The notes under the pieces are model-generated. The model had not been told where the DNA came from. It saw only the letters and a list, made by a program, of their open reading frames with translations, and searched no databases. Positions 32,269 to 59,115 of a DNA stretch of 64,000 nt are shown here, one piece after another. Position numbers and translations under genes: made by a program. The stretch comes from Methanobacteriota archaeon (GTDB taxonomy: Archaea; Halobacteriota; Methanomicrobia; Methanomicrobiales; Methanoculleaceae): positions 632,025 to 696,024 of the forward strand of contig JAENYE010000001.1 of assembly GCA_016841955.1 (NCBI GenBank), in the 5' to 3' direction. How positions within the stretch are numbered: position 1 is the stretch's first letter; each line of letters begins with the position of its first letter.

Positions 32269-32270
32269 AT

Positions 32271-32390
32271 GCGACGGGCCGAAGGGCCAGAGCACGAGAA
32301 AACGCGAAGCGTTTTCGAGTGGCGAAGTTCCGCAGAACGACGTCCCGAAGGGACGGAGTTCGAGAAACCCGATGGGTTTCGAGGAACCGA
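32271..32390 (+). repeat. Two covarying double-hairpin repeat modules
   Basis: Module one runs from 32271 to about 32324 and module two from about 32338 to 32390. Each begins (C/A)GACG, has a first hairpin with loop GAA (GGCC/GGCC; 32341-32346/32350-32355), a linker ending in CGAG, and a second hairpin (32298-32305/32309-32316, 8 bp, loop GAA; 32364-32370/32374-32380, 7 bp, loop GAT), followed by CGAG. The same plan recurs at 34694-34745 and 58999-59115 with different stem sequences. Nothing in the stretch appears to be coding. Confidence 0.75.
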
Positions 32391-32412
32391 GTCTGAGCAC
32401 CGCAGGCGTGAC

Positions 32413-34629: not shown

Positions 34630-35010
34630 AAGGTTCCGGTTCGGGATTGGAAGGGACCTGAATCAGGAGCCGTCAACGATCCTGCAGGCTTCGCGCTCTC
34701 GAAGAACTTCGTTCTTCTCAAGCTCCGGACGGGGCGTCCGTCGCTCTTCGCGTGAAATGGTGGTGGGGGTAGTAGCGAAACCTCACGCGAAGCCGCGAAG
34801 AACGCGAAGTCCAGCAGATAGCTGTTGGGCGATCCCCTTCGCGGCTTCGCGCTCTTCGCGTGAGATACAGTGTGGGTTGGCAGCATGATATCGCGCGCTG
34901 CGAAGAGGGGTTGCCGACAGCCGCACCGTTCCCGCGTGAATCGACAATGGAGGGATAGTAGCGGAGTCCCTTTCGTGTGAGACCCCGAACGACCCCAAAA
35001 GAGTAAGGGG
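34630..35010. repeat. Gene-free repeat tract between trm5 and the DUF35 gene
   Basis: This 381-base stretch has no convincing gene. It holds a minus-strand copy of the double-hairpin module at 34694-34745 (hairpins 34701-34707/34711-34717 and 34726-34731/34735-34740). It also has a 14-bp inverted repeat, 34787-34800/34837-34850, built of GCGAAG units, and a 13-base direct repeat (GCTCTTCGCGTGA) at 34743-34755 and 34851-34863. The words TAGTAGCG and CGTGWGA recur, which suggests decayed tandem material. Confidence 0.65.
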
Positions 35011-58937: not shown

Positions 58938-58998
58938 CTGCACGCTCACGGATAAATCCTATATAGAATTCCCCTCCGGTGCTATTAATGTTTGAGTA

Positions 58999-59115
58999 GC
59001 GACGTTCCGAAGGAACGGAGCTCGAGAAGACCGAAGGTCTTCGCTGTGCGACGTTCCGTAAGGGCCGGAGCTCGAGCACCGGCAGGTGCGAGTGGCGACG
59101 GACGGAACGTCCGGA
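58999..59115 (+). repeat. Three tandem double-hairpin repeat modules
   Basis: Three copies each begin GCGACG: at 58999, 59048 and 59095. Copy one has stems 59003-59008/59012-59017 and 59026-59032/59036-59042, both with loop GAA. Copy two has linker CGGAGCTCGAG and stem 59076-59080/59085-59089. Copy three keeps only the first hairpin (59099-59104/59108-59113, loop GAA). The linker CGGAGCTCGAG is identical in copies one and two. Confidence 0.75.

Follow-up and report, generated by a model that had tools for sequence, protein, structure and literature searches.

The window (the whole 64,000-nt stretch of DNA analysed) holds an array of three short units, a lone unit and a tandem array of the same kind (Table 1). 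Copies aligned in register are usually 43-50 nt long and follow the plan N-R-CGAC-(stem A, loop, stem A')-GGAG-Y-N-Y-GAG-(stem B, loop, stem B')-CGAG. Hairpin A precedes hairpin B. In both, the stem varies in sequence but is paired, the loop is GNA or GNNA, and the base of the stem carries a tandem G.A/A.G mismatch; around these mismatches CGAC lies opposite GGAG, and CGAG opposite CGAG. The original prediction placed modules of one shared design at 32271-32390, 34694-34745 and 58999-59115. All are present as described, and the exact pattern occurs 12 times in the genome from which the window comes (own genome), as against 0 for the reversed pattern. At finer scale, the first site proves to be a longer array with one of its three units nested, the second module lies on the minus strand, and the third site, starting at 58998, comprises two complete units followed by a truncated hairpin. 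GCGACG and CGGAGCTCGAG, previously taken for constant linkers, are instead parts of the hairpins, paired around the tandem G.A.

Table 1. Hairpin units in the window (positions count from its first letter; CM, covariance model)
Feature	Position	Strand	Description	Basis
Array	32270-32412		three units, the third nested within the second	
Unit 1	32270-32319	+	base N and two hairpins; A = GCGAC GGGCC GAA GGGCC AGAGC; B = CGAG AAAACGC GAA GCGTTTT CGAG	CM match, 45.1 bits
Unit 2, 5' half of hairpin A (GCGAAGTTCCGCAG)	32322-32335	+	split by unit 3	sequence
Unit 3	32336-32383	+	in loop/3' side of unit 2 hairpin A; AACGAC GTCCC GAA GGGAC GGAGTT CGAG AAACCC GAT GGGTTT CGAG	CM match, 72.2 bits
Unit 2, 3' half of hairpin A (GAAC CGAG) and hairpin B	32384-32412	+	B = CACC GCA GGCG, ending GTGAC	sequence
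Single unit	34698-34745	-	follows GAAG, a target-like tetramer, within another repeat of the CGCGAAG type	CM match, 68.2 bits
First unit of tandem array	58998-59045	+		CM match, 73.9 bits
Second unit of tandem array	59047-59092	+		CM match, 30.4 bits
Truncated unit	59095-59115	+	hairpin A only, model positions 3-21	CM match, 18.4 bits

Once unit 3 is taken out, GTTCC-GCA-GGAAC is restored in unit 2; the junction is of the type found in 19 distinct nested cases (see below). The relative G010 displays the same nesting and an orthologue of unit 1, a site that is empty in six relatives. The first unit of the tandem array occupies the gap between divergent genes that, as named by eye, resemble those for an aminoacyl-tRNA synthetase and a uracil-DNA glycosylase. 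Another kind of repeat, CTCACGCGAAGCCGCGAAGAACGCGAAG and its inverted partner (CTTCGCGGCTTCGCGCTCTTCGCGTGAG), lies at 34780-34870 of the window; it is found again in many of the fetched stretches and is a frequent landing site of hairpin units, which join directly after GAAG.

A covariance model built from four copies matches the window strongly at three places and more weakly at several others. The search for further copies proposed with the original prediction returned neither an empty genome nor a set of disrupted stems: the own genome, 2.4 Mb in size, contains at least 156 matches at E<=1, and the stretches read around its matches yield 200 at E<=0.05. The spread of the family is lineage-specific. 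Copy number ranges from 0 to at least 88 among 34 relatives of the same genus, with many copies in most Methanoculleus genomes, only 0-2 in some nearly complete ones, and almost none outside the genus; the zero-copy genomes are G014, G018, G019, G021, G023 and G034. In a phylum sample of 247 genomes, matches are confined to the genus apart from 3 weak ones, which fall in two genomes of a different family. These two (G045 and G218; best E 1.4e-6 per genome) belong to the same order, and their matches may be distant relatives or chance. Named matches are to Methanoculleus or to unclassified Methanomicrobiales/Euryarchaeota bins. Two genome papers on Methanoculleus/Methanomicrobiales do not mention such repeats, and the coverage of RepRanger excludes the genus Methanoculleus.

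The statistics given here come from three sources: the window itself, some 0.33 Mb of sequence selected because units are present in it, and loci in relatives. Among hairpins collected by the constant motifs (anchors) only, with no stem requirement, stems have at most one mismatch in 190/215 A hairpins and 239/341 B hairpins, and the commonest A stem (GGGCC..GGGCC) contains a G.G mismatch; pairing is mostly, rather than always, kept. The covariation noted earlier is genuine. Across 81 distinct 25-nt A hairpins, two-sided changes are seen in 8 of the 9 pairs, and the covariation score is 0.493, compared with 0.182 for shuffled hairpins and at most 0.115 with partners slid. The outer dinucleotides of the anchor-only collection also covary (AA:TT 39, TG:CA 35, CG:CG 24 and AG:CT 23). 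Furthermore, an anchor-free census, in which hairpins with any tandem mismatch are sought without family sequence, finds 157 of the GA/GA type and 43 of the next, TC/TC being the GA/GA set read from the opposite strand. Stems of at least 5 bp number 199 in this census versus 3 in the reversed control, and their loops are mostly GNA or GNNA.

In the collected hairpins, triloops are GNA in 137/156 (A) and 145/167 (B) cases, and tetraloops are GNNA in 21/26 (A) and 61/67 (B). DNA minihairpins in which a C-G pair closes a GNA or GNNA loop are unusually stable, d(GCGAAGC) being an example. Extraordinarily stable hairpins like d(GCGAAGC) have also been described without a GNA rule (PMC10527192). Hairpin A also has a palindromic sub-type, GCGAGCG(T/C)AGCGAGC, which keeps the tandem G.A and the GNA loop (L086 1317-1331, L089 1306-1320 and L090 16845-16859).

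Units are inserted and lost at orthologous sites, where arrays vary in number, nesting and stems between relatives whose flanks are mostly 87-94% identical. For example, the gap between an acetyltransferase-like and an HMG-CoA-reductase-like gene (the GNAT-HMGR gap, named by eye) measures 10-26 bp in six relatives and holds arrays in the own genome (G000), G008, G010 and G017. Similarly, the gap at 58998 contains different units in seven genomes, including G005, G008, G010, G013, G017 and G025, and none in G007, G019, G022 and others. Reading frames hold units too, in either orientation. In MoeA, an orthologous 48-nt in-frame unit is present in 13 genomes, 11 are empty, and 6 retain a 12- or 15-nt remnant. 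This remnant (L073 1395-1440, orthologues L211-L240) is a 12-nt in-frame footprint in five genomes and 15 nt in one, and apparently reflects a 36-nt deletion from the 48-nt unit. Of the genomes read at OsmC, four carry arrays in frame within the gene and the rest have none; in-frame units are also found in MoaD and in an ACT-domain-like protein.

Clean empty sites, together with nested and in-frame insertions, fix the ends of the element and suggest a target rule. In each of the 19 nested cases, a second unit becomes complete once the inserted one is taken out. The insertions all lie in hairpin A of the host unit, in the loop or on its 3' side and before the GGAG of that hairpin, mostly following a purine-rich tetramer, and the orientation is that of the host unit in 19 and the opposite in 0. 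The junctions are precise: one or two bases at most are ambiguous, and a constant target duplication is lacking. Outside arrays, sites after a purine-rich tetramer are preferred: left flanks are all-purine tetramers in 62/142 cases, typically AGGG, GGGG or GGAG, against a 9.4% background, the remaining 80/142 not being pure purine. A gap of exactly 2 nt is commonest among close same-strand pairs (18/35), and both strands are represented within 17 intergenic clusters. Precise ends, a single orientation and the lack of duplication point to an enzyme with strand specificity and speak against transposition of the DDE type.

No mobilising enzyme was found for the units. A RAYT/Y1 partner is rejected as absent or anti-correlated: neither the own genome nor other high-copy genomes have Y1 transposase (PF01797), and Y1-rich genomes have no or few units. 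The Methanoculleus relative G021 has 19 Y1 matches, many of them fragmentary, and no hairpin unit at E<=1e-6. Four Y1 loci that were inspected, two of them in Methanoculleus, have no such hairpins nearby. Reverse transcriptase is also rejected as the mobiliser, RVT_1 being found in only 3/35 genomes. The own genome itself carries a reverse-transcriptase domain (G000:C9:10365-10934), which is rare in the genus. A search for Y2 (IS91) transposase gave no match, and none in any control either. When 2,411 ORFs near units were clustered, no gene recurred beside the units and no transposase was recognised by eye.

Our preferred reading, to which we give a probability of roughly two in three, is that the units are REP-like, very small non-autonomous mobile DNA, moved as a folded single strand by an enzyme acting in trans. 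Mobile units of this kind were among the options raised by the original prediction, and presence and absence at orthologous sites, nested insertions and the range of copy number per genome bear that option out. The orientation, the lack of duplication and the loop type point to single-strand chemistry, and mobilisation would occur in trans. In the proposed mechanism, both hairpins would form in the same single strand of DNA, a replication fork being one place where this could happen. A putative endonuclease/strand-transferase, supplied in trans, would recognise the shape of the hairpins rather than the sequence of their stems, cut at CGAG and join the strand 3' of a purine tetramer, often one in the exposed loop of another copy. 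Stems would then be free to vary if paired, because shape alone would be needed. Recombination among copies may also exchange stems, and the insertions that survive would be mainly intergenic and away from promoters, or in frame within genes. A bolder and more doubtful proposal is that the units may be the substrate of a novel archaeal strand-transfer enzyme, neither Y1 nor DDE. Such an enzyme would recognise the shape of a ssDNA hairpin (sheared tandem G.A plus GNA loop) independently of stem sequence and prefer the exposed loops of these same hairpins, giving rise to nested arrays and in-frame protein additions.

The way in which stems change bears on a rival explanation that dispenses with a dedicated enzyme, whereby template switching and gene conversion generate, spread and "correct" hairpins. 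Between L080 and L286, GGTCC/GGACC is replaced as a block by GGGCC/GGGCC in units that are otherwise near-identical. At another locus, unit 2 differs between G000 and G010 in two pairs changed on both sides, across the nested insertion, in an array that was already established. Both observations favour hairpin copying, and gene conversion in methanogens is the subject of work cited in PMC6749651. Stem diversity probably comes partly from gene conversion between copies, and the two-sided changes in unit 2, which count against the preferred reading, may be a sign of in-place maintenance or correction of structure as well. However, the tandem G.A mismatches and the common G.G mismatches persist, whereas templated correction should remove both, and random template switching predicts neither precise ends nor a single orientation at new sites. 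As a full account, we consider hairpin copying improbable. The MoeA copy, in turn, has lost pairing in several species with no compensation. Given this decay and the block replacement of stems, structure is better read as a need of the element than as a need of the host gene; at some orthologous sites the covariation stems from such block replacement and not from point compensation.

A still less likely explanation is that the units are structured RNA elements acting in transcripts, through 3' end protection, termination or processing, or as small RNAs, with covariation arising from RNA selection. The strong covariation and the stability of the RNA folds are in keeping with this, as is part of the gene context. 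With genes predicted by a home-made caller, 88/101 clusters lie outside predicted genes, and these intergenic clusters over-use convergent gaps (44/88) and under-use divergent ones (9). However, orientation relative to the 3' ends of neighbouring (upstream) genes is the same in 61 cases and opposite in 61, and Rfam 15 gives 0 matches above the gathering score in the window, so an RNA element is unlikely. Further evidence against it includes units within reading frames in either orientation, the 0-2 copies found in certain near-complete Methanoculleus genomes, and the uncompensated loss of pairing in MoeA. GNRA is the stable RNA loop class, and it makes up a minority of the GNNA tetraloops (5/21 in A and 6/61 in B). 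The suggestion of RNA elements at mRNA 3' ends in the original prediction is accordingly not supported. Gene context and MoeA decay fit instead the mobile-DNA reading, with a structure needed for moving and hosts tolerating units away from promoters. Least probable of all, remnants (MITEs) of a DDE-type insertion sequence moved by its transposase would likewise be small, non-autonomous, high-copy and mostly intergenic, but the units have no terminal inverted repeat across them, nest in a single orientation without constant target duplication, and have no transposase gene recurring next to them.

As mobile DNA, the units give archaea a REP-like family with a design legible from covariation. Their in-frame insertion is a route by which the methanogen proteins MoeA, OsmC and MoaD could acquire inserts of ~15-60 residues. 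Because high-copy genomes lack the Y1 that explains bacterial REPs, the movement of transposase-less REPs becomes testable in a culturable genus.

The family resembles the bacterial REP/BIME/REPIN elements (GTAG and CGTC super-families), which are also short, palindromic, high-copy, mostly extragenic, clustered and non-autonomous (PMC3733652, PMC3116915), and shares with them a placement downstream of or between convergent genes. The CGTC REPs of bacteria have no known transposase either (PMC3733652). Unlike REPs, the units consist of two different hairpins that combine tandem G.A mismatches with GNA/GNNA loops, and they insert into one another and reside in an archaeal host. Close same-strand copies often form head-to-tail arrays with a 2-nt gap, whereas REPs are mostly head-to-head dimers; such dimers may also be present in the 17 intergenic clusters with both strands. 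They also lack an unpaired GTAG or CGTC tag, their ends N-RCGAC and CGAG taking part in pairing, and, unlike the GTAG type, they have no RAYT/Y1 transposase in their own or other high-copy genomes; in archaea, only the IS200 subclass is reported (PMC6006769). These findings on tag and transposase are why the family is filed as REP-like and not as REP.

Rickettsia palindromic elements (RPE), of ~150 bp, offer a second likeness, being palindromic and in frame within protein genes (PMC10969869, PMC3733652), as the units are in MoeA, MoaD and OsmC. Unlike RPEs as described, the units measure 43-50 nt, occur in methanogens and are intergenic in most copies.

IS200/IS605 elements have subterminal hairpins and insert into a single-strand target 3' of a short motif, in a fixed orientation and with no target duplication. 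The fixed orientation of the units in 19/19 nested cases and their lack of target duplication are like those of IS200/IS605 and its derivatives (Y1 HUH; PMC6006769). In contrast to that family, the units share no ends with Y1-encoding elements at the four Y1 loci. Integron attC sites are folded-strand recombination substrates that are recognised by shape and have variable stems. By analogy, the units may likewise be a folded strand that is read by its shape, with stems that vary.
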